Notes: generated by a model from the sequence alone, not told the origin. A stretch of 22,645 nucleotides of DNA from a virus (IMGVR_UViG_3300005827_000098:1-22645), one strand, 5' to 3'. Positions 8,646 through 22,645 are shown, numbered from the stretch's first letter. A program made the numbers and translations.

Positions 8646-8654
8646 TCCTATCAT
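8646..8654 (+). repeat. TCCTATCAT copy 3 (at a start codon)
   Basis: Exact 9-mer overlapping the ATG at 8653 and preceded by GAGAGGT. The gene before it (start 8389) has the same context with three bases missing (GAGAGGTTATCATG). Confidence 0.85.
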
Positions 8655-9006
8655 GATTCGCCACGGCTCCCCGCCATACCTTGAATGCAGCAGCAAGGGC
8701 GATGCGCGCTTCTCTGCATTCTATGCTAAGATTGATGGTGTGTCCATCGAGCAGATCTACCAAGCTGCCAAGGTCTTTGAAGATGGTAGCACCGGCTTAG
8801 GCTGGCGCCAAGCGAAAGGCCGCAAGGCTGTGAATCAAGCAGAGGTTGCCCTACTGTATGGCTACCTCTGGGACGAGTATATCAAGCGCAATCCGCATCT
8901 GTTAACGGTGTTGCGTAAAGCATCCGGTGTGTCTGACATGTTCGGACAGCCCGGTCGTTGTTGTCAGGCCACTGAGCTGTGGCGTATCCGTAACTCTAAC
9001 CTGTGA
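8653..9006 (+). CDS. NADAR-like protein (possible ADP-ribose or N-glycoside hydrolase)
   Basis: This 117-residue protein has the layout of a small NADAR-type domain: RFSAFYA at residues 19-25, SIEQIYQAAKVF at 31-42, an AKGRKAVN segment at 54-61, and LWDEYIKRNPHLLTVL at 72-87, then a C-terminal QATELWRIRN. NADAR proteins remove ADP-ribose from nucleic acid or act on related N-glycosides. The match is partial, and this may be a separate phage family with a similar pattern. Its pairing with SLOG and DUF4326 genes supports a link to nucleotide or NAD chemistry. The start is ATG 8653, with GAGAGG and the shared spacer. Confidence 0.55.
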   Translation: MIRHGSPPYLECSSKGDARFSAFYAKIDGVSIEQIYQAAKVFEDGSTGLGWRQAKGRKAVNQAEVALLYGYLWDEYIKRNPHLLTVLRKASGVSDMFGQPGRCCQATELWRIRNSNL

Positions 9007-11874: not shown

Positions 11875-12053
11875 AGACAATCGAAATCATCACCCTCAAA
11901 GCAGCACATGCTGAGTTGACCAAGGGTGAGAAGACTGCAGGCTACGTGAAGCTGGCAGACCTCAAGGCCTTGTGCCTTCCCGATCGCAAGCCCAAGCAGG
12001 GCTGGCATTTCACCGGTAACTGGAACAAGAGTGTGAAGCCTCACTATGCTTAA
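11871..12053 (+). CDS. Small basic unknown protein
   Basis: This 60-residue protein starts at ATG 11871, overlapping the previous stop, with GGAG six bases upstream. Its stop lies eight bases inside the next gene. It is rich in lysine and has no recognised domain. Tight coupling to both neighbours supports expression. Confidence 0.6.
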   Translation: MKTIEIITLKAAHAELTKGEKTAGYVKLADLKALCLPDRKPKQGWHFTGNWNKSVKPHYA

Positions 12054-13044
12054 TGGTCAGATCTTCGAAAAGCTGAGTGAATTCAGTGGGATGGGCACCA
12101 TCACCGATGATTCCATCACCAGCTTCGACACATGGATGAAGGGTGTTGTCAAGTCTGGCAACGCCTATCCCACCTATTACGCATTCAATGAGATGCAAGA
12201 TCAGTGGGACTCCAAGGCTCAGCGCGTCAAGAAGTCACAGAGTTTGATGCCTGTGTCTTATTACTGTATGCGTCACTTCGCCAACAACTACAAGAACCCC
12301 ACCGATGCACTCATCTTCAAGCTCACGAACAAGACCGGGCGACCCACTATCACGAAGGAGTTTTATGAATATCTCTTTGCTGATTCGTCTCCTTGGCGAA
12401 GCGCTTTTCCTGGCCTCGCAGGGCTCAAGCCTGACAAGAACGGAATCCCAGACTACATCGTCTGGTTCGACACCAAGAAAGTCCCAGCCAAGACAGTAGC
12501 CAATCTGTTTGCAGCCATCCGTCTGCACACCTGCTGGGGCGCTGACTGGTTCTTCATGCGTCTACGTGAACTGGGGTTCAAGGATGAAGCAGCTATCCTC
12601 CTATCATCAATCTTCGCATGGAATGGTCAGACCATCACCACGAGCAACGGGCACAGTGCCAAGTTCAGTGAAGATCCCCGTCAGCTCATTGAGCTCAACA
12701 AGTTCGGTGCATCCAAGACCGACATGCCTTTCTCGACGCAGTATAACCCAAGCGGTTTTCAGCCACTACTGGTTCAGAAAGAGCCTTCCACCGTTAGTAA
12801 ATCACTGATGGACAAGACACCGACCCAGCCGAACAACTTCATCTGGCACGGTGACAAGAAGGCAATCAACGCTGACAGTCTCAACACAACCAGTGAAGAG
12901 TACAAGAACAGTCTTATCAAGATCGTTCCTCATAGCGATCCTACCGGACTGCACTCAGCAATGAAGGGCAAGAAGAAGCTGTCGAAGGCCACCCTGTCCG
13001 AGATCGAAGACGCTCTCTATAACGCCAAGTCCATCACTCTCTAG
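12046..13044 (+). CDS. Unknown protein at the head of the amidoligase operon
   Basis: This 332-residue soluble protein has no family I recognise. The N-terminal half contains SYYCMRHFANNYKNPTDALI (residues 71-90), and the middle has a conserved-looking IRLHTCWGADWFFMRLREL (158-176). The C-terminal part is rich in K, S, T and P and ends in a charged helix (KKLSKATLSEIEDALYN). It starts at ATG 12046, overlapping the gene before by eight bases, and ends nine bases before the class I amidotransferase. The position suggests it could be the substrate or a partner of the ligases that follow. Confidence 0.7.
   Translation: MLNGQIFEKLSEFSGMGTITDDSITSFDTWMKGVVKSGNAYPTYYAFNEMQDQWDSKAQRVKKSQSLMPVSYYCMRHFANNYKNPTDALIFKLTNKTGRPTITKEFYEYLFADSSPWRSAFPGLAGLKPDKNGIPDYIVWFDTKKVPAKTVANLFAAIRLHTCWGADWFFMRLRELGFKDEAAILLSSIFAWNGQTITTSNGHSAKFSEDPRQLIELNKFGASKTDMPFSTQYNPSGFQPLLVQKEPSTVSKSLMDKTPTQPNNFIWHGDKKAINADSLNTTSEEYKNSLIKIVPHSDPTGLHSAMKGKKKLSKATLSEIEDALYNAKSITL
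12599..12607 (+). repeat. TCCTATCAT copy 9 (inside a gene)
   Basis: Exact 9-mer inside the 332-residue unknown gene, read as Leu-Leu-Ser-Ser codons. Confidence 0.8.
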
Positions 13045-13053
13045 GAGTACCCA

Positions 13054-13770
13054 TTGAGCAAGAAGCTTCCAACCATAGACATCCCTGACTTGATTGTCGG
13101 TGTAACCAGGCCTACACTTGGTGCCGAGAACATCTTCACCAAAGAAGATGGTTATCAAGTCGTCATCCTACGTCCGGGTGAGCCTTTGCCTGACCATGTA
13201 GACATCCTTGTGTTTACAGGTGGCGATGACATCAGCCCTTCGCTATATGGTGAAGGTCGTTGTCCTGAGACTCATCCGAATACGGATCGTGATGCCTTCG
13301 ACATCCACGTCCACAAGAAGTACAGCATGGCAGCCAAGCTTGGTATCTGCCGCGGTGCTCAGTTCTTGTGTGCATGGAATGGCGGCAAGCTGTGGCAGGA
13401 CATCCCTGATCACAACTCTGGTCTGCATCTCGTCCGTGACATGTTCACCAACAAGCTGGTCAAGGTTAACTCAGTCCATCATCAGGCCTGTCGTCCTCCT
13501 GACTTGGCTGTCACCATTGCTCAGACCACAACCACTGTTCCGTGGGTCAAGGATCAAAATGCCAAGGCCTACATGCCTCGCTACGTCGTCGAAGCATTCT
13601 TCATCCCAGATGACAATGCTCTTTGTGTCCAGTGGCACCCTGAGTTCGGCCATCTCGAGTCCAAGGAATACTTCTTCGAACTCGTGGAACGATACATTAA
13701 GCCTGATGAGATGCGTCTTGCTCTCATGACCCAGCAGGAAGCAGCCAACAACAATAGAGCCGTAGGCTAG
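13054..13770 (+). CDS. Class I glutamine amidotransferase (peptidase C26-like)
   Basis: This 238-residue enzyme should release ammonia from glutamine, or cleave a gamma-glutamyl bond. The triad is visible: nucleophile Cys99 in GICRGAQ, His195 and Glu197 in QWHPE. The oxyanion segment FTGGDDISP lies at residues 54-62. The GGDD-type pattern is closest to gamma-glutamyl hydrolase and PuuD-like members. The start is TTG at 13054, backed by AGGAG six bases upstream; no ATG lies nearby. It stands next to a class II amidotransferase and several ligases, so it probably supplies ammonia to, or trims, an amide-bonded product. Confidence 0.88.
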   Translation: MSKKLPTIDIPDLIVGVTRPTLGAENIFTKEDGYQVVILRPGEPLPDHVDILVFTGGDDISPSLYGEGRCPETHPNTDRDAFDIHVHKKYSMAAKLGICRGAQFLCAWNGGKLWQDIPDHNSGLHLVRDMFTNKLVKVNSVHHQACRPPDLAVTIAQTTTTVPWVKDQNAKAYMPRYVVEAFFIPDDNALCVQWHPEFGHLESKEYFFELVERYIKPDEMRLALMTQQEAANNNRAVG

Positions 13771-13782
13771 GAGTAACAACGC

Positions 13783-15252
13783 ATGTGTGGTATGGCTGGG
13801 ATCATGTCGACGAACATGATCGACAACGAGGTAGAGATCGGGCGTCGACTCGGCATCCTTAACCATTTCCGTGGTGAGGATGCCGTAGGTATGTTCGACT
13901 ATGTACCCTCACTCAAGGATGCTGAGCAGATCCGCTATTGGAAGTACGATGCTCACCCCTTGGACTTCATCAAGAAGCCCTTCGATCGTATCAAGCAGAC
14001 ACGATGGAAGACCAACCCCAAGCTGTTCGCCATCCACTGTCGAGCCGCTACTCAGGGCAAGCTTAGTGAACGCAACGCTCATCCGTTTGCATTCAAGAAC
14101 ATCGTGGGTATGCACAATGGCACGATCACCAAGGAGTTCGCTAACCGCAAGAAGTTTGAGACGGACTCTGAAGCGCTCTTCTACAACATCGACAAGATGG
14201 GACTACGTGATGCGCTTAAGGAGCTACAGGGCAAGGATGCGGCATTCGCCCTCGTCTGGCTCAACTGGTACGACGGCACCCTCAACTTCATCAGAAACTA
14301 TAAGCGTCCTCTCCATGTCACCTCGTTTATGGGAGGATCTACGATTGCCTGGTCATCCGAAGAAGCCCATCTGAAGCTGGCAATCGAGTCGGTCATGAAG
14401 AGCAGCTATCCATCCATCAAGCAGTTCAGGGTGGGTGTGCACTACAAGATCGACATCGACGCAACCAAGCTGGAGTTCGAGGAGACCGAGATCGAAGAGG
14501 CTAAGGAGGTAGTGACGTATGCGCCACCCTCTACGTTTCAAGGTACTGCTGAGGGCTATACGCCGAGCTACCCTTCGTCCACCTCTTCCGGCACAGCCTA
14601 TAGTCCCCGAAAAGATCTCACGGAAAGCTCCGCCTACTGGCTTAAGTTTGGGCGAGATTCCGCGAAGGTCGACCTCAACTGGGACCTCTACACGCAGTAC
14701 GATGAGGTCTCTGGATACTTCTTTACAACCTACGCGTATGAGCGACTTAAAAAGTACCGTCTCATCGAAGAGTCCAAGAGGTACATAGAGGAGCAGAAGA
14801 AGCAGGAGGCCACGTCTTCCAACGTGGTTACCTTTCAGCCGAAAGGGGAGAAAGAGGAAGTCACGCAAACTTCGGGTGAGATCCCCTTCAACGACCCAAC
14901 CCCTTGGGAAGATGACTATGCAAAGTCGATGATGAATGAGGCTAAGGACGAGATCTTCTACCCTTTTGGAGTGGGTGGCGTCAAGCTTTGTTCGGGACCG
15001 GCCTACCGTCAAAAGCTGGCACATGATTGTTGTTCATGTGGCAACGCCGAGCCTGATGAGGACGACTACCTCTTCTGGCTTAACGATGATGAGTTCCTCT
15101 GCCTCAGCTGCGCTCAAGACGTAACTGAGAATGACAACAACTGGATGCTTAAGGGCAGCATCAGCGACCATGAACGCCAACGGATCAAGATGGAGATCGA
15201 CGCCCTCGGTTTCGATAACGATCCAGCTGAAGAAAAGGTAGCAGTACATTGA
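13783..15252 (+). CDS. Class II glutamine amidotransferase with C-terminal zinc ribbon
   Basis: This 489-residue protein begins MCGMAGI, which places Cys2 as the N-terminal nucleophile after methionine removal. Other class II features are HCRAATQG (residues 85-92), NAHPF (98-102) and GMHNGTI (109-115). The amidotransferase domain ends near residue 230. The rest is unusual: a Ser/Pro/Thr-rich linker (250-280), a charged helix (320-345) and a C-terminal CxxC...CxxC ribbon (C416/C419, C440/C443). No asparagine synthetase or sugar isomerase domain is attached. AGGAG lies nine bases before the ATG. Its product ammonia would feed the ligases downstream. Confidence 0.9.
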   Translation: MCGMAGIMSTNMIDNEVEIGRRLGILNHFRGEDAVGMFDYVPSLKDAEQIRYWKYDAHPLDFIKKPFDRIKQTRWKTNPKLFAIHCRAATQGKLSERNAHPFAFKNIVGMHNGTITKEFANRKKFETDSEALFYNIDKMGLRDALKELQGKDAAFALVWLNWYDGTLNFIRNYKRPLHVTSFMGGSTIAWSSEEAHLKLAIESVMKSSYPSIKQFRVGVHYKIDIDATKLEFEETEIEEAKEVVTYAPPSTFQGTAEGYTPSYPSSTSSGTAYSPRKDLTESSAYWLKFGRDSAKVDLNWDLYTQYDEVSGYFFTTYAYERLKKYRLIEESKRYIEEQKKQEATSSNVVTFQPKGEKEEVTQTSGEIPFNDPTPWEDDYAKSMMNEAKDEIFYPFGVGGVKLCSGPAYRQKLAHDCCSCGNAEPDEDDYLFWLNDDEFLCLSCAQDVTENDNNWMLKGSISDHERQRIKMEIDALGFDNDPAEEKVAVH

Positions 15253-16094
15253 AAGGTTATCTCCTTCGTCGCCGTAAGCTTGGCAACGGCAGCACTCTCG
15301 GCATTGTTGCTGCGTCTAAGACAGGCATCACTGTCGTCCGTAACGACAAGACTCTACCATCAGCAGCTGACCTCGTCTGCATCCGCTGGGGTTGTTCCTC
15401 TCAGGTCCCTCAGGCCAAGGTGTGGAACAAGGTAGAGGCGATGCACCGTGTGGCAAACAAGAAGAACTTCCGTCTCTTGCTCTCTAAGAACGACCTCGCA
15501 GTCCCCTCTTGGGGTAGCTACGAGAACTTCCTCTCTACGCAGACATCAAATAAGTGGGTGGTGCGCCCTGCCACCCATGCCCAAGGCCGTAACATCTGGG
15601 CGTTCGACAGCACACAGTTGGCAGCGATGAAGGCCAAGTGTAAGCAGCTGGGTGACTACTACATCTCTGAGTTCTTCGACAAGAAGGCTGAGTACAGAGT
15701 GTTTGTCGCATTCGGACGGGCCGTATGGGTAGCTCGCAAGACTCCAGGTAACCCAGGTGACCTGGCGTGGAACGTAGCGCAGGGCGGTAAGTTTGACAAC
15801 GTCAAGTGGGGTGACTGGCCCCTCAATGTTGTCAAGATTGCCTGTGATGCAATGAGTCTGAGTGGTCTTGACTTCGGCGGTGTCGATGTCATGGTTGACG
15901 ATCAGGACAACTTGTCTGTCCTCGAGATCAACTCCGCTCCGTCTCAGACATCGCCTTATCGACAGTCATGTGTGGCCAAGGTGTTCGACTGGCACCTTAC
16001 GGCTGGCCTTCATGACCACTACACCCTCGGCAAGTCCGGTAAGTACTACCGTTACATCCATCCAGCCCTTGATTCAGGAGCAATCATCTCGTGA
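15249..16094 (+). CDS. ATP-grasp ligase (RimK-like)
   Basis: This 281-residue enzyme is expected to activate a carboxyl group as acyl phosphate and join it to an amine. ATP-grasp marks in order: a glycine-containing ATP loop VVRPATHAQGRNI at residues 104-116, YYISEFF at 137-143, EYRVFV at 148-153, DFGGVDV at 208-214, and the metal-binding LEINSAPS at 225-232 (E226 and N228). It starts at TTG 15249, overlapping the preceding TGA as TTGA, so translation is coupled to the class II amidotransferase. The substrate is unknown. Confidence 0.88.
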   Translation: MKGYLLRRRKLGNGSTLGIVAASKTGITVVRNDKTLPSAADLVCIRWGCSSQVPQAKVWNKVEAMHRVANKKNFRLLLSKNDLAVPSWGSYENFLSTQTSNKWVVRPATHAQGRNIWAFDSTQLAAMKAKCKQLGDYYISEFFDKKAEYRVFVAFGRAVWVARKTPGNPGDLAWNVAQGGKFDNVKWGDWPLNVVKIACDAMSLSGLDFGGVDVMVDDQDNLSVLEINSAPSQTSPYRQSCVAKVFDWHLTAGLHDHYTLGKSGKYYRYIHPALDSGAIIS

Positions 16095-16897
16095 TCTATT
16101 CGACTATCAAGCCTGAGGTCAGCGTTGGTGCTGACCCTGAACTCTTTGTCTTCCGTCAGTACACGCCTGTGTCTGCCCACGACATGCTTCCGGGAACCAA
16201 ACATGCACCCATGAAGGTTCCTCGCGGTGCCATTCAGGTCGACGGTGTCGCCGCGGAATTTAACATAGAGCCGGCCAAGACGCAGAAGGATTTCCTCAAG
16301 AACATCCGTCATGTGCGTCGCATCCTCGAACGACTCGTCGCAGCAAAGGGTAAAGAGTATGTCCTACAGGCGGTCCCAACGGTCCACTTCGATCCGGAGT
16401 ACTTTGCGGCGCTACCGGATGAAACGAAAGCACTTGGCTGTGAGCCCGACTACGATGCCTACACAGGTAAGCCGAACCCCAAGCCGGAGACCACGAAGCC
16501 TATGCGTACTGGTTCTGGCCACGTTCATGTTGGTTGGGCTGGGTGCAATCCCGATCGCAGTGATTACCATGAGATCTGCTCTCTCCTGGTACAGGAACTC
16601 GACTTCACGCTCTACCGCCAGTCCCTCAAGTGGGACGACGACAAGGAACGAATGGAGCTGTACGGTAAGCCGGGTGCCTTTCGGTACAAGCCGTATGGAC
16701 TCGAGTACCGTGTCCTCAGCAACCGCTGGCTCGAGAAGGAAGGCACTCAGAAATTTGTCTTTGACACGGTCAAGAATGTCACCACCCGAGTACTGATGGG
16801 CGAGCAGTTCGCTAAGAACTTCCAGTCACAGTGTAGCTACGAGAACTACCTGCTCGTCAGGAGACTTCCTATCATAAACGAGTACATCAATGGCTAA
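16091..16897 (+). CDS. COOH-NH2 ligase type 2 (phiEco32-like amidoligase)
   Basis: This 268-residue protein belongs to the glutamine synthetase/GCS-fold amidoligases known from phage phiEco32. Signatures: GADPELFV at residues 13-20, the metal-binding QVDGVAAEFN at 49-58, GCEPDYDAYT at 116-125, RTGSGHVHVG at 139-148 and GLEYRVLSNRW at 203-213. It should form an amide bond between a carboxylate and an amine at the cost of ATP. The start is GTG 16091, overlapping the previous TGA as GTGA, with AGGAG upstream. The 3' end holds a TCCTATCAT copy. Confidence 0.9.
   Translation: MIYSTIKPEVSVGADPELFVFRQYTPVSAHDMLPGTKHAPMKVPRGAIQVDGVAAEFNIEPAKTQKDFLKNIRHVRRILERLVAAKGKEYVLQAVPTVHFDPEYFAALPDETKALGCEPDYDAYTGKPNPKPETTKPMRTGSGHVHVGWAGCNPDRSDYHEICSLLVQELDFTLYRQSLKWDDDKERMELYGKPGAFRYKPYGLEYRVLSNRWLEKEGTQKFVFDTVKNVTTRVLMGEQFAKNFQSQCSYENYLLVRRLPIINEYING
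16867..16875 (+). repeat. TCCTATCAT copy 10 (end of ligase gene)
   Basis: Exact 9-mer near the 3' end of the COOH-NH2 ligase gene, read in a different frame (Leu-Pro-Ile-Ile) from copies 7 and 9. The repeat is therefore a DNA or RNA signal, not a protein motif. Confidence 0.8.
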
Positions 16898-17516
16898 GGA
16901 ACCTCGGTATCTACAGTCCAATGACGCCACCATGAGGCTCGATGGGTCTCTGGTGCGATACAAGGACAAGGTCTATCTTGGGCGGATAGACGGCAGCTAC
17001 ATCGCTCTGTTCGACATCTACGAGTACGCCAACACAATGGGTGTCACTCCCAAGCACAAGATCTCGTGGAATGACGAAGACATTGACATCAGGGCAATCC
17101 ACGTAGGCTACATCAACCACGACAAGATGGCCTACTACATCACTCGGCCTCCTTTCAGGAAGCAGAAGCAGGGTACAGCAGTGACCAACGTCTATTCGGC
17201 CCCTGCAGGTACCCTTAAGTTCGGTCCTGTAGCCAACGGTCTGTTCTTCTCACAGGGCCTCAGAGATGCTGTCCACCTCATCTACCCACCCTATAAGGAA
17301 GCAGTCAAGAAGGTTGTCAAAGACCAGAATCTCAAGTCCATCGCCTTCTCTCCCGAGTTTGCGCTTAATACTAAGGATGAGACAGGCGTTGTACTTTATT
17401 GCGATCAGACCCGAGTTGGTCAGCTCGATCCCAACGACTACATGCAGCTTGACGCCGACTGTCAAGACTCAATCCTTGTACAGAAACTGTCTGATCTTGG
17501 AGTACCAGTAGCATAA
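16890..17516 (+). CDS. Unknown protein between the two amidoligases
   Basis: This 208-residue protein has no family I recognise. The N-terminus (residues 14-45) reads as beta strands (SLVRYKDKVYLGRIDGSYI), the centre has AYYITRPPFRKQKQG at 101-115, and the C-terminus is acidic. It overlaps the ligase before it by eight bases and the amidoligase after it by one base (TAATG). Being locked between two ligases, it could carry or bind the substrate; this is inference. Confidence 0.7.
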   Translation: MAKEPRYLQSNDATMRLDGSLVRYKDKVYLGRIDGSYIALFDIYEYANTMGVTPKHKISWNDEDIDIRAIHVGYINHDKMAYYITRPPFRKQKQGTAVTNVYSAPAGTLKFGPVANGLFFSQGLRDAVHLIYPPYKEAVKKVVKDQNLKSIAFSPEFALNTKDETGVVLYCDQTRVGQLDPNDYMQLDADCQDSILVQKLSDLGVPVA

Positions 17517-19231
17517 TGGTTGCCCCCACCACCGGCATTCTCCAGCTCAATGAGCCTTTGGAGAAATACCTTCCTCAGCTTAAGCCTGTCGCCAAGACCC
17601 TTGATGAGGCCATCATTGGCGTTGAGTTTGAGAATGAAATCAAGACGAATGACGCCCCGTTCACTGGTCTCTTCCAGAAGTTCGGGGCAGTCAAGAACTG
17701 GAAGTACCATGACGAGAACTCCTTGCGGCACTACGGCTTTGAGTTTGTCTCGCGTCCCGTGCCTATTCCAACCTTTAAGCTGCAGACACTCGACCTGTTC
17801 AAGAATATGGCACACCAGATTGCCGCTAAGGAATCCTGGTACTCTCCCGAGAAGCCCCTCCCACTTACGAACTCTACTCGCACGTCCGTCCACGTTCACT
17901 TTGATGTACTGAAGTACTCCACGGTCCAGCTCATTAACTTTGTCTCCCTTTACTGGATCATGGAGCCGTTCCTACAGCATTTCTGTGGCAGCTGGCGACA
18001 GGGCAATCTCTTCTGTCTCAGGGCCAAGGACAGCAGCTACATCAAGATCATCCTCTCGGACATCTTGGCTAGCAAGAAGCCGCTCCTTAAGTCCACCCTA
18101 GTTAACGAGAGCTATCGGTATGCCTCTGTTAACTTCAACAGCCTCACCAAGTTCGGCACCATTGAGTTCCGGCTCATGCGTGGTGTCAGCGATCCCTTTG
18201 ACTCCTTCCTCTGGGTAGATGCACTCGAGGCTATCCGTAAGTTTGCCCTCCAGTACCCCTCTACCGATGCCTTCAAGAGCTTCTTTATGAACGAGGTTGA
18301 CGCAGCAGACCTGCCCAAGTACGTCCTTGGACCCGAGCTGTACCTCAAGATCAAGAAGTCTTTCCCCAAGAACGAATCTATGGGCACTGCTATCCGTGAT
18401 GGCTGGATGTCTATCTCCTCCATCATGCGTCCGTCTACCAACTGGGATGCAAAGTATCTTGATGGTCTAAGAAAAAAAGTAGAAGATGAGCGGGCTGCAC
18501 GACTCATCGAGAGTCAAAAGATGCAGCCTGAGTTTCTTGACGCTATTATGAACTCTGAGTATTGGAAGAAGGGTATGCAGGATCACGATCTGACCCACGA
18601 TGCCCTTTGGTCTTCTTGTAAGACCTACCACCCCCATCCCATCCTTAACGGTGCCCTCAAGGAGTGCAAGATCTCCATCACGGATTACCGTAAGGCCTTC
18701 TTCTTCAACGAGTGGGAGCGGGAGTATGTCCAAGACTATGAGGCCGACCCTCATCCTCCTCTGCCTTCTAACCAGCTCACTGGCTTTGGCTCAGCTAATA
18801 CTATCTCAGGTAACTGGTCATTCGGTAGTGGACCTAGTGGCGTAGAGGCTCAGCTGATTGCTGCAAGTGCAGATGCTGCTAGCCTAGCGACCTACAAGAG
18901 CATCTACGGTATGACGCACAACATGACGCAGACTAAGCTGAGTATTGCTGCTGCTATGGTTGTGGGCCTGCCTCTGACTACTTCGCCTAGTAACTTCATG
19001 CTTGCTCTGCAGGTTCACCCGCTTGTGCCCTGGTCCAAGTGGGATGGTGCAAAGTGGATTAACCACATCCCTGATGTAAATCCTGCAGCTGAGGTACTTG
19101 CAAACATAGCAACGGGTCCCCATATCTCTGGTGATGGTCATGTGGAAGACGTGACAATTGTCGATGACCTTGAATGGCTCGATGATGACATCCCGGATGA
19201 AGAACCTCCGCACCTCGACGACGACTTCTAA
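17516..19231 (+). CDS. Amidoligase (Amidoligase_2 family) with long C-terminal extension
   Basis: This 571-residue protein has an amidoligase domain in its first 250 residues: IGVEFENEI at 34-42, YGFEFVSRP at 73-81, RTSVHVHFDV at 122-131, a tryptophan-rich helix with WIMEPFLQHF at 147-156, SYRYASVNF at 199-207 and GTIEFRLMRG at 214-223. This order matches glutamine synthetase-like amidoligases. Residues 300-571 are an extra region, ending in a very acidic tail (EWLDDDIPDEEPPHLDDDF), that I cannot assign. The start is ATG 17516, overlapping TAA. It is the second amidoligase in the operon, so two successive bond-forming steps are likely. Confidence 0.86.
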   Translation: MVAPTTGILQLNEPLEKYLPQLKPVAKTLDEAIIGVEFENEIKTNDAPFTGLFQKFGAVKNWKYHDENSLRHYGFEFVSRPVPIPTFKLQTLDLFKNMAHQIAAKESWYSPEKPLPLTNSTRTSVHVHFDVLKYSTVQLINFVSLYWIMEPFLQHFCGSWRQGNLFCLRAKDSSYIKIILSDILASKKPLLKSTLVNESYRYASVNFNSLTKFGTIEFRLMRGVSDPFDSFLWVDALEAIRKFALQYPSTDAFKSFFMNEVDAADLPKYVLGPELYLKIKKSFPKNESMGTAIRDGWMSISSIMRPSTNWDAKYLDGLRKKVEDERAARLIESQKMQPEFLDAIMNSEYWKKGMQDHDLTHDALWSSCKTYHPHPILNGALKECKISITDYRKAFFFNEWEREYVQDYEADPHPPLPSNQLTGFGSANTISGNWSFGSGPSGVEAQLIAASADAASLATYKSIYGMTHNMTQTKLSIAAAMVVGLPLTTSPSNFMLALQVHPLVPWSKWDGAKWINHIPDVNPAAEVLANIATGPHISGDGHVEDVTIVDDLEWLDDDIPDEEPPHLDDDF

Positions 19232-19244
19232 TAAGGATAAAACA

Positions 19245-19457
19245 TTGCGTTGTCATATATGTGATTACTCCGGGTCTCCCGGAACTGCCTCTCTCTACTC
19301 CACCTCCCTCGTCGACCCAAAGGGTTCGCGTAAGCGGACCCTAAGGGTTGACCCTAGGACAGGCTACGAGATCTGCTCAGTGTGTGAGCATGACGTAACC
19401 CCCAGTCCTACGAAGCGTAAGCCAAGGCGTATGATGGACTGGGACCCTCAGTTCTAA
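19245..19457 (+). CDS. Small zinc-ribbon protein with TTG start
   Basis: This 70-residue protein has CHIC at residues 3-6 and CSVC at residues 45-48, a likely four-cysteine zinc ribbon, with a basic stretch between and after (RKRTLRVDPRTG, KRKPRR). The frame is open upstream to an ATG at 19158, but that would overlap the amidoligase by 74 bases. TTG 19245 has AAGGAT seven bases upstream, and the first CxxC begins at once, so I choose it. It ends in a TAATG overlap with the primase-helicase, suggesting a replication role. Confidence 0.68.
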   Translation: MRCHICDYSGSPGTASLYSTSLVDPKGSRKRTLRVDPRTGYEICSVCEHDVTPSPTKRKPRRMMDWDPQF

Positions 19458-21043
19458 TGGCAGAGCCACCGCTCAAAGCGCACCAACCGTGCCCTTGCGG
19501 TGAGTCGTCAGACGCCTATGCTCTATGGGCAGATCATGGCTACTGCTTCTCATGCAAGAAAACACATCAATTCAAGGATGAAATCATAGTGGAATCAGAT
19601 CCAGGATTCTCTGCAGCAGCCCCCGTCGTTTCCACTGTTGCGAGTCTCCAGCAGGTGCCTTACCGCGGTCACTCCGTCAGTGCTCTAGTCAAGTACGGTG
19701 TACAGATTGAGTTTGACCAAGCCAATGAGATGATCGGGGTAAGGTACCCTGGCTGGAAGCCGGGCTCCTACAAGCGACGAGACCTGCGTAAGAAGGACTT
19801 CCGATGGGTAGGGCACCCTGGTCCAGGCCTAATCGGTAAGGACAGGTTCTCTGCAGGGTCAGCAATGGCCATTACTGTCACAGAGGGCGAAGAAGATATG
19901 CTCTCAGCATACGAGATGCTGGGCAGCAAGTACCCTGTCGTATCCCTTCAGTCGGCCACTAGTGCCATTAACGACTGTAAGGCTGACTACAACTACCTCA
20001 ACGCCTTTGAGAAGATCTACCTGTGCATGGACAATGACAAGGTAGGGCAGCAGGCAGTCGAGGACATCTCCAAGCTCTTCCCCTACCACAAGATCTATGT
20101 GGTTGAGAAGACCAAGTTCAAGGATGCCAATGAGTACCACATCAACGGTGCCTCCGCTGAGTACCAGAAAGTATGGTGGGCAGCGAAGCGACATGACCCA
20201 GACAATATCGTATCATCGTTTGACGGCCTCCGAGAGGAGTTCTTTAAACCGACTAAGAAGGCTCTTTGCACGTTTCCGTTCGCTGAACTCCAAGACGCCA
20301 CAAGGGGGATACGAGTTGGAGAAACTTATCTCGTCAAAGCACTTGAAGGCATTGGCAAAACTGAGTTCCTCGGGGCCATAGAATACCATGTCCTCCAGAA
20401 TACTGACGTTCCCATTGGTATCATACATCTGGAAGAAGACATCCAGCGTAGTGCGTACCGTATGGTCAACTACCATGTCAAGCAACCAGTCCACCTCGAA
20501 GGGGCTACCAGTCTCAACCAAGAGGACATCTTCGAGCTCTACAAACAGGCGGTGGGTAGCGACGATCGCGTTCACTATTACAAGAAGGGGAAGAATGACA
20601 CGGACACAAGTCACTTTCTGGCAGCTGTCCGATTCATGGTGGCCTCGGCTGGTTGTAAAGTGGTATTCTTCGACCATATCACACGCCTCGCTACTTCTTT
20701 CCGACTAGATGATGAACGTAAGGAACTTGACTTCGTAAGCACGAAGCTGAGTGAGATGGCAGAAGAGCTAGGCTTTGCTCTCATCATGATCTCCCACGTC
20801 AACGCAGAAGGAGATACGCGTGGCTCTAAGAACATCTCCAAAGAAGCGTGGACTGTCATCAACCTCTACCGGGATCGAGTTGAAGACAATCCGATCAAAC
20901 GTAACACTACCACGTTGGTCATCGAAAAGAACCGCCATGCAAGCACGACTGGTCCAGCTGGTGCTGTCTACTTCAATCCCGAAACCTTCACCCTGACTGA
21001 CAACGTACCGACGTTGACTGTCCCTGTTGAGGACCCCACATGA
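19457..21043 (+). CDS. DNA primase-helicase (T7 gp4-like)
   Basis: This 528-residue protein joins primase and replicative helicase. An N-terminal zinc ribbon (C12, C14, C30, C33) is followed by a TOPRIM domain with EGEED at residues 143-147 and DND at 192-194. The RecA-like helicase has Walker A ALEGIGKT (295-302), acidic LEED at 325-328, Walker B VVFFDH (402-407), ISHVN (445-449) and an arginine-bearing KNRHASTTG (491-499). It should unwind the fork and prime lagging-strand synthesis. It starts at ATG 19457 (TAATG) and ends in ATGA with the next gene. Confidence 0.94.
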   Translation: MAEPPLKAHQPCPCGESSDAYALWADHGYCFSCKKTHQFKDEIIVESDPGFSAAAPVVSTVASLQQVPYRGHSVSALVKYGVQIEFDQANEMIGVRYPGWKPGSYKRRDLRKKDFRWVGHPGPGLIGKDRFSAGSAMAITVTEGEEDMLSAYEMLGSKYPVVSLQSATSAINDCKADYNYLNAFEKIYLCMDNDKVGQQAVEDISKLFPYHKIYVVEKTKFKDANEYHINGASAEYQKVWWAAKRHDPDNIVSSFDGLREEFFKPTKKALCTFPFAELQDATRGIRVGETYLVKALEGIGKTEFLGAIEYHVLQNTDVPIGIIHLEEDIQRSAYRMVNYHVKQPVHLEGATSLNQEDIFELYKQAVGSDDRVHYYKKGKNDTDTSHFLAAVRFMVASAGCKVVFFDHITRLATSFRLDDERKELDFVSTKLSEMAEELGFALIMISHVNAEGDTRGSKNISKEAWTVINLYRDRVEDNPIKRNTTTLVIEKNRHASTTGPAGAVYFNPETFTLTDNVPTLTVPVEDPT

Positions 21044-21324
21044 CACTAGAAGAAGCTGTTAAGACTTATACCTACTGCGCTGTCTTCCCAGATACCTGGG
21101 GTGATCGAGTTCCAGAGCCTAAGTATTGGGAAGCCCGAGCTATTACAGGCAATCTATTCAGTCGAAAGTACGCAGCATTTGCAAGGTATTTTCCTAATCC
21201 AGCATGGTCAGACGAGGTAAATGCAGACGTTGACAAACACAGTGAAGAAGAACAAGACCGTCGTCTTAGACTGCGAGACGAATGCACTGACCGGATACGA
21301 GAAATTCTGGGTCGCGGTCAGTAG
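21040..21324 (+). CDS. Small unknown protein between primase-helicase and polymerase
   Basis: This 94-residue protein starts at an ATG overlapping the primase stop, with GAGGA about seven bases upstream. It has an aromatic N-terminal half (YCAVFPDTWGD, EPKYWEARAI) and a highly charged helical end (EEEQDRRLRLRDECTDRIREIL). Its last part overlaps the start of the polymerase gene in another frame. No family is recognised. Confidence 0.65.
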   Translation: MTLEEAVKTYTYCAVFPDTWGDRVPEPKYWEARAITGNLFSRKYAAFARYFPNPAWSDEVNADVDKHSEEEQDRRLRLRDECTDRIREILGRGQ

Positions 21325-22645
21325 AGATGTTGACAGCGGTGAAGTTGTTGTTTTCAAGAATGTCCACGAAGATCCGCAGCCACTTCGTGACCACCTCAAT
21401 ACAGTTGATGTCATTGTCGGGCACAACCTTGTGGGTTTTGATCTTGGTGTTCTCAGGCATTTTCTGGGGATTGACTGGCCTCTCGATCGCATTCTTGATA
21501 CACTTGTTATTTCTCGACTCCTAGACTACCGACGTGAAGGTGGTCATAGCCTAGACAACCTAGGCAAAGCACTAGGCTATAAGAAAAGCCTCTTCAATGA
21601 CTTCAGCCAATGGTCTGAAGCCCTCCAAACACGGTGCATCATTGACACCGAGATCAGCCTCAAGGTTTACAACGAACAGAAAGCCTACATCTATAGCAAG
21701 AAGTGGGCTCCTATTATCCAGATGGAGACTTTTATCCAGGGCTTCTGCCAGGATATGTCTACCGACGGATTTCATTTCGATATTGACACGGCCACGGAAC
21801 TCTGCGAGACGCTAGAGCCTGTAGTAGCGCAGCTTGAGGAGGACTTGAGAACGGCCTTCATACCGTGGCCTGTCTTCGTCAGGGAGATCAACCCGCGGGC
21901 CACTAAGTCTGGGGCACTGCACTCCCAAGACTTTAAATGGATGAAAGAAGAAGTCAAAGACTTGACTGGCTTCTCTCCAGGTGCGCCCTTCTCCCTGATC
22001 GAATTTCCCCAGTTCAACCCACGCTCTAGTAAGCAGCGAGTTGAACGACTGAACGAAGCCGGATGGCGTCCAATCAATAAGACGAAAGCGCACATAGAAG
22101 CTGAACGAGCAAAAGATGTAGACAAGATCAGGTATTATCGAACTTGGGGTTGGAAGGTAGACGAGGAAAATCTTGCCACCCTTCCAGAAACTGCCCCTCC
22201 AGCTGCTCAGATGTTGTCCAAATTCCTCCTCTTGTCCAACCGACTTAAGGTGTTGCAGGAGTGGATCAACATCTACAATCCAGAGACAGGTCGTATCCAC
22301 GGGACGTTCACGGGTATCGGGTCATGGACCCACCGAATGGCGCATTCCGCACCTAATATGGCTAACGTACCTGCTTTGGTTAACAGACACGGCAAGCCGC
22401 AACCATACGGAGCTGAGTTCCGATCCCTCTGGACGGTACCCCAGGGTAAGATACTCATCGGATGTGACGCTGAGGGTATTCAGCTTCGTCTGTTTGCACA
22501 TTTCTGTAATGATTCCAAGCTCATAGAAGCAATCGTTAACGGAAAGAAAGAGGATAAATCTGACATCCACTCCTTGAATCAGGCCATCCTCGGCACTATA
22601 TGTAATACTAGAGAGGTAGCAAAGACCTACATCTACGCCCTATTG
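21221..22645 (+). CDS. DNA polymerase, family A (T7-like), 3' end outside the window
   Basis: The first 475 codons are present. Residues 1-150 form a 3'-5' exonuclease: VVLDCETNAL (Exo I, D17 and E19), VGHNLVGFDLGVL (Exo II, N69 and D74) and the Exo III region with D142. In Exo III the usual Tyr four residues before Asp is Arg138. The polymerase part has THRMAHSAPNMANVP and motif A IGCDAEGIQLRLFAHF with D416. Motif B begins (R464, K468) as the window ends. The start is ATG 21221 (GAGG three bases upstream) or GTG 21242; either overlaps the gene before by about 80-100 bases. It should copy the phage genome with the primase-helicase. Confidence 0.93.
   Translation, partial: MQTLTNTVKKNKTVVLDCETNALTGYEKFWVAVSRDVDSGEVVVFKNVHEDPQPLRDHLNTVDVIVGHNLVGFDLGVLRHFLGIDWPLDRILDTLVISRLLDYRREGGHSLDNLGKALGYKKSLFNDFSQWSEALQTRCIIDTEISLKVYNEQKAYIYSKKWAPIIQMETFIQGFCQDMSTDGFHFDIDTATELCETLEPVVAQLEEDLRTAFIPWPVFVREINPRATKSGALHSQDFKWMKEEVKDLTGFSPGAPFSLIEFPQFNPRSSKQRVERLNEAGWRPINKTKAHIEAERAKDVDKIRYYRTWGWKVDEENLATLPETAPPAAQMLSKFLLLSNRLKVLQEWINIYNPETGRIHGTFTGIGSWTHRMAHSAPNMANVPALVNRHGKPQPYGAEFRSLWTVPQGKILIGCDAEGIQLRLFAHFCNDSKLIEAIVNGKKEDKSDIHSLNQAILGTICNTREVAKTYIYALL

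Follow-up and report, generated by a model that had tools for sequence, protein, structure and literature searches.

A divergent seven-gene member of the phage amidoligase/ATP-grasp ('peptidoglycan modification') cassette in a virus record from IMG/VR

A seven-gene set described as a putative 'peptidoglycan modification cassette' is carried by RIO-1-like phages; it is also listed for phiEco32, 7-11, PA11, tf, MR299-2, LUZ24, PaP3 and CW02 (PMC5498523), and phage phiM6 holds seven open reading frames (ORFs) of the same cassette (PMC6256558). Proposed uses are superinfection exclusion or the preparation of lysis (PMC11945000), and in HP1 the genes of the cassette are transcribed immediately upon infection (PMC7082346). 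Here we describe a block of seven genes at positions 12046-19231 of a virus record in IMG/VR (IMGVR_UViG_3300005827_000098:1-22645), the whole 22,645 bases of which we call the window. We hold it close to certain that this block belongs, as a divergent copy, to the known phage amidoligase/ATP-grasp ('peptidoglycan modification') cassette; that its substrate lies in the cell wall is a more tentative proposition.

A first-pass annotation of the window had read positions 13054-19231 as an operon of six linked genes, and had compared it to the amidoligase/ATP-grasp clusters of phiEco32 and similar phages described by Iyer and colleagues. The comparison is right and the operon reading is borne out: the six ORFs are present with these limits, all on the + strand, and the junctions between them measure +12, -4, -4, -8 and -1 nt, so that all five, and not four of the five as first counted, are tight (-8 to +12 nt). 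The limits, however, are too narrow by one gene, since the ORF at 12046-13044 (+), 9 nt from the first of the six, also belongs to the block. Considered as a whole the earlier interpretation is partly supported: its gene identities, operon and likeness to phiEco32 stand, but its class for the first enzyme, its extent of the block and its treatment of the substrate as wholly open do not. The window encodes together a COOH-NH2 ligase type 2, an amidoligase, a RimK-like ATP-grasp and a class II glutamine amidotransferase (GATase II), along with a C26/class I glutamine amidotransferase member (PF07722, 3e-21); their catalytic residues are intact, and the set stands among replication genes, beside a primase/helicase (19457-21043, +; PHROG 239, 2.4e-115) that is a constant downstream neighbour and not itself an enzyme of the cassette.

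In a viral contig collection 539 stretches match the cassette; the best 80 loci were kept, and 51 of these have enough flank to count as well covered. Every one of the 51 encodes a GATase II, a COOH-NH2 ligase and an ATP-grasp; the partner protein and the amidoligase are found in 50 each, the C26 enzyme in 46 and the family encoded upstream of it in 44. All seven parts occur in 42 of the 51 loci, always on one strand, and the commonest order (upstream protein, C26, GATase II, COOH-NH2 ligase, partner, amidoligase, ATP-grasp) is found in 31; the primase/helicase adjoins the block in 71 of the 80. Gene-neighbourhood comparison, a check that the first-pass annotation had named, thus shows the parts recurring together in 44 to 51 of 51 relatives, and the loss of active-site residues in relatives, which it had set beforehand as one outcome that would count against it, did not occur: catalytic residues are kept across 115-144 relatives per enzyme family. 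The make-up of the set, the order of its genes and the intactness of their catalytic residues are thus established, as is its conservation as a single co-oriented block across unrelated phage backbones, and the recurrence of the gene set in dozens of phages is far beyond chance. Scans of the viral contigs with the single sequence of the window's COOH-NH2 ligase or ATP-grasp gave no match; queries built from alignments succeeded.

Among named phages, all six parts are found beside the primase/helicase in the Zobellviridae PA11, CW02 and CVT22 and oyster-associated phages, and in the HMO-2011-like rhizobial phages phiM6 and RHph_I3_11. In the LUZ24-like PhiCHU and Kuravirus SU10 the set has the same neighbour and no recognised C26 gene, and in Vibrio phage V07 the C26, GATase II, COOH-NH2 ligase, partner and amidoligase genes were found. 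The cassette is widespread: it is carried by phages that infect Pseudomonas, Escherichia, Vibrio, Rhizobium and other hosts, and it occupies 6-7 kb of genomes of about 50 kb. A search of bacterial genomes (84,980 species) gave only 12 matches, all in metagenome-assembled contigs, several of which are phage-sized (46-50 kb). These are likely to be phage contigs binned with bacteria, and a bacterial origin of the cassette is disfavoured. Three such cassette-bearing contigs of 46-50 kb (L174, L175 and L177), binned to metagenome-assembled genomes of Crocinitomix, Patescibacteria and Colwellia, are probably misbinned phage.

The first of the six enzymes (13054-13770, +) had been taken for a class I glutamine amidotransferase, one of two enzymes supposed to release ammonia. 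It has the class I amidotransferase fold, but scores higher as Peptidase_C26 (3e-21, 76.7 bits, above the Pfam cut-off) than as class I amidotransferase (7e-6, 26.2 bits); it also matches PHROG 7218, and its triad, Cys99, His195 and Glu197, is 100% conserved in 115 relatives. The closest solved chains are Lin1909, the probable glutamine amidotransferase 7d4r and gamma-glutamyl peptidase 1, and the homologues in phiM6 and KZY1 are annotated as C26 or gamma-glutamyl-hydrolase-like. The notion of an ammonia-feeding class I enzyme is accordingly not borne out, and with it a pair of ammonia suppliers is unsupported; judged by its scores and its solved relatives, which include a gamma-glutamyl peptidase, the protein is likelier to hydrolyse gamma-glutamyl bonds than to serve as a further source of ammonia. 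The next gene (13783-15252, +) encodes the class II amidotransferase (GATase_6, 1.5e-10 in Pfam; PHROG 4736, 1.4e-54), with an N-terminal Cys2 and a C-terminal four-cysteine motif that resembles a zinc ribbon; Cys2, Arg87, Asn112, Gly113 and Asp128, together with Cys416, Cys419, Cys440 and Cys443, are 93-99% conserved in 135 relatives.

The clearest variant trait of the window's cassette is the subtype of its ATP-grasp ligase (15249-16094, +). The protein is RimK/TTL-like (Pfam RimK 2.3e-7 and TTL 1.5e-6; PHROG 2599, 1e-18), and Lys71, Arg106, Glu148, Arg150, Lys164, Asp213, Glu226 and Asn228 are conserved at 99-100% in 137 relatives. Yet it scores 417 bits with a profile of a minority subtype, type A, compared to 56 bits with that of the common type B. 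Type A occurs in 13 of 171 loci (some of them from the same contigs), and because only two of the 13 hold both types, we conclude that type A usually replaces type B. In the two loci with both, L101 and L120, type A precedes GATase II and type B follows the amidoligase. The place before GATase II is the usual one for type A; a position between GATase II and the COOH-NH2 ligase is seen only in the window and in one other locus, L014. Membership of the minority subtype also explains why a tblastn search of 50,697 phage records (INPHARED) gave no match to the window's ATP-grasp.

The two remaining ligases are recognised principally through PHROG profiles. For the COOH-NH2 ligase type 2 (16091-16897, +), which is phiEco32-like and would have a glutamine-synthetase-like fold, the assignment is based on PHROG 3815 ('COOH.NH2 ligase', 1.8e-72) and on direct homology to annotated members; Glu17, Glu56, His144, His146, Arg198, Glu205 and Arg207 are conserved at 99-100% in 139 relatives. 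For the large amidoligase (17516-19231, +) it is based on PHROG 7469 (1.1e-35, over residues 33-303) and on conserved motifs, with Glu37, Glu39, Glu41, His126, His128, Arg161, Asn206, Glu217 and Arg219 kept at 99-100%. The catalytic domain covers approximately residues 1-300 of 571, leaving about 270 extra C-terminal residues that finish in an acidic-aromatic tail, EEPPHLDDDF; no homologue of this extension is recognisable.

The last two parts lack an annotated function. For the seventh gene (12046-13044, +; 332 amino acids) the one close homologue is that of L014, in the same place (8.6e-83). Approximately 102 ORFs lying directly upstream of C26 genes form one family, and a joint profile of the window and L014 proteins matches it (hhalign probability 96.8, E 3e-10; 1.9e-8 for the L014 protein by hmmsearch). 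In 41 members of the family Cys74 is conserved at 100%, Arg159 at 98%, Gly177 at 95% and His203 at 93%, a pattern that suggests a Cys-dependent enzyme. The family is reached only by profile: tblastn against phages gave no match to the protein, no Pfam family fits it, no match was found in the PDB, and its AlphaFold2 model is of low confidence (predicted local distance difference test, pLDDT, 62.6). The Foldseek list for this model (Rob complex, GINS, APH, LuxS) was set aside as noise. The partner protein (16890-17516, +; PHROG 11055 family, 9.6e-14), which nearly always lies directly upstream of the amidoligase, is by comparison confidently modelled (pLDDT 94.7, predicted template-modelling score 0.88, from 61 sequences). 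Foldseek against the PDB gave no match to this fold (best E 0.28), and the matches in BFVD are phage proteins only, one of them from CW02. Gly, Arg and Pro make up most of its conserved positions (G73, R86, P88, R90, G95, P133, G177); because they form no catalytic-looking set, the likeliest role would be that of a scaffold, an adaptor or a protein that presents the substrate.

If these assignments hold, the genes would be co-expressed before or together with replication. The class II amidotransferase would release ammonia from glutamine, and the COOH-NH2 ligase, the amidoligase and the ATP-grasp would activate carboxylates at the expense of ATP to form up to three amide bonds, with the fold-orphan partner scaffolding the ligases or presenting the substrate; the C26 enzyme, by cleaving gamma-glutamyl amides, could edit or trim the product. 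On the assumption that the enzymes work in the cytoplasm, the likeliest substrate would be a precursor of murein peptides or some other gamma-Glu peptide, and the outcome could be a wall specific to the phage, one that impedes superinfection or makes ready for lysis. The substrate was less open than first supposed, host peptidoglycan having already been proposed (PMC5498523; PMC6256558; PMC11945000).

A recurrence of gamma-glutamyl chemistry speaks for this reading: C26 is present in the window, and gamma-glutamyl cyclotransferase (GGCT) lies near the block in 26 of 80 relatives. Several points weigh against it. The published peptidoglycan proposal is based on gene content only, and in the literature searched we found neither an experimental test of the cassette's substrate nor a report of substrate, product or mutant phenotype. 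The domain searches named by the first-pass annotation confirmed ligase kinship through PHROG but not through Pfam: the COOH-NH2 ligase falls below the gathering cut-off of PF14395 (6.5e-4; 19.5 bits, where 25 are required), and the amidoligase has no Pfam match, PF12224 (Amidoligase_2) not being reached, so that Pfam by itself is insufficient to confirm either ligase. No GGCT match was found in the window, an absence that does not exclude membership because GGCT is optional among the relatives. Finally, amidoligase tails like that of T7 gp2.5, and the adjacency of the primase/helicase, fit a role at protein tails or at the replisome equally well. A cell-wall substrate is therefore held here as somewhat less probable than an even chance, and we put cassette membership and a cell-wall substrate, taken together, at a probability of roughly 0.4.

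The tails deserve separate consideration. An acidic end finishing in F, W or Y (a pattern defined after inspecting the sequences, for which an independent set is needed) is present on 34 of 132 distinct amidoligases (26%), compared to 14 of 1,250 unrelated ORFs (1%; Fisher p 5e-26, uncorrected for kinship), and is absent from all 415 proteins of the C26, GATase II, COOH-NH2 ligase and partner families. Grouped loosely, the 132 amidoligases fall into 114 clusters, 25 of which contain the tail. The other tail-rich family in these loci is PHROG 862, in which 42 of 56 proteins carry tails such as GDDDIPW; that of T7 gp2.5, EEADEDGDF, is of the same style. Two roles are conceivable for the tail of the amidoligase, docking signal and ligase substrate. 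As for the PHROG 862 proteins themselves (about 240 amino acids; for example L141:11784-12521 and L128:13028-13849), they have tails like those of single-stranded-DNA-binding proteins and are not recognised by Pfam; they are a candidate family of phage single-stranded-DNA-binding proteins. Homology to gp2.5 is unsupported, there being no Pfam match and no alignment.

The main alternative is modification of proteins. On this view the amidoligases and the RimK/TTL-like ATP-grasp would attach Glu or another amine to phage or host proteins that end in an acidic tail, the amidoligase itself possibly among them, and C26 or GGCT would reverse the addition. RimK and TTL families act on acidic protein C-termini (those of ribosomal protein S6 and tubulin), and the window's ATP-grasp matches both; in relatives such as PA11 the ATP-grasp is annotated as a ribosomal protein S6 glutaminyl transferase, and the enrichment of acidic-aromatic tails on amidoligases points the same way. 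However, only about a quarter of amidoligases bear the tail, which can serve for docking instead of as substrate, and tagging of the RimK type needs less than two glutamine-synthetase-fold ligases and an ammonia supplier; we consider protein modification rather unlikely. Its more specific form, a system extending acidic-aromatic C-termini (of the amidoligase itself and the PHROG 862 protein) with the fold-orphan adaptor and the upstream Cys/His enzyme as dedicated parts, appears decidedly improbable. Another possibility is that the amidoligase docks through its tail on the phage replisome, DNA or replication proteins then being the target of the cassette. In its favour stand the concentration of this tail type in PHROG 862 and the neighbouring primase/helicase; but a single-stranded-DNA-binding role for PHROG 862 is not demonstrated and no base-modification enzyme is recognised in the block, and such a function is very improbable.

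The cassette might also synthesise or remodel a small molecule, such as an amine or an amino acid joined by an amide bond to a gamma-glutamyl group, and so reprogram host nitrogen or amine metabolism or counter defence. The PuuA/PuuD gamma-glutamyl-polyamine pathway comprises a glutamine-synthetase-fold ligase and a C26 hydrolase, a combination that the phage enzymes may be said to resemble, and the solved relatives of the C26 enzyme are compatible with such chemistry. Three ligases and two extra conserved proteins nevertheless exceed what simple conjugation requires, and no polyamine-specific partner genes were seen; this explanation we regard as unlikely. Whichever substrate applies, what is added here is the seven-part definition, the reclassification of the C26 enzyme, the replaced ATP-grasp, the fold-orphan partner and the recurrent amidoligase tail. 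The definition, the conserved residues of two functionally uncharacterised parts and the tail provide concrete mutants and baits for a substrate hunt. Should the wall reading be true, the cassette is a route to superinfection immunity; should tails of proteins be the target, phages have here a new system of protein modification.

Elsewhere in the window, genes for capsid, head-tail adaptor and terminase lie in the left part, on the minus strand. Scans for promoters and terminators found sites no more numerous than in shuffled sequence and are uninformative on transcription. Between the amidoligase and the primase a small ORF (19158-19457, +) has a CxxC-type cysteine pattern and a weak homologue in the same place in L014 (7e-4). 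Beyond the primase an open frame (21221-22645, +) runs off the record; its closest match is the L014 ORF that follows the primase (7.5e-171), and it stands at the place that a family A DNA polymerase takes in relatives. A 117-amino-acid ORF (8653-9006, +) matches the model of the DarT1-associated NADAR antitoxin just under the cut-off (4e-6) and is possibly an ADP-ribose-related or counter-defence gene.

Compared to known systems, the PuuA/PuuD pathway shares with the window the logic of ligase and hydrolase, but the phage ligases belong to other families, and the ATP-grasp, GATase II and the two functionally uncharacterised parts have no counterpart in it. The cobavirus-like Zobellviridae of marine Rhodobacterales (Celeribacter phage P12053L, Lentibacter phages ICBM1-3 and Roseobacter phage SIO1) have terminases 59-64% identical to the window's; none is among the 60 listed best matches to the COOH-NH2 ligase, a result of that list and not of a record-by-record check. 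The cassette of RIO-1/PSA-HP1, PA11, CW02, tf, LUZ24, PaP3, phiEco32 and Salmonella phage 7-11 (Hardies et al. 2013, as cited in PMC5498523) comprises, like the window's, a C26 or glutamine amidotransferase member, GATase II, COOH-NH2 ligase, a conserved unannotated protein, amidoligase and ATP-grasp, on one strand and among replication genes, a composition checked in PA11, CW02 and relatives. The window differs in having an ATP-grasp of the other subtype between GATase II and the COOH-NH2 ligase, an arrangement shared only with L014, and in being without GGCT; its amidoligase has 571 amino acids, compared to about 266-398 in the annotated phages examined. Sinorhizobium phage phiM6 and Rhizobium phage RHph_I3_11, both HMO-2011-like, have an HNH gene inside the block, a second GATase-like gene and the other ATP-grasp subtype, to which phiM6 adds GGCT. 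Like the window, they possess a peptide-bond module with all six parts; their partner protein is the closest to the window's among cultured phages, and the primase/helicase of phiM6 is the closest among the annotated phages compared (1e-98).

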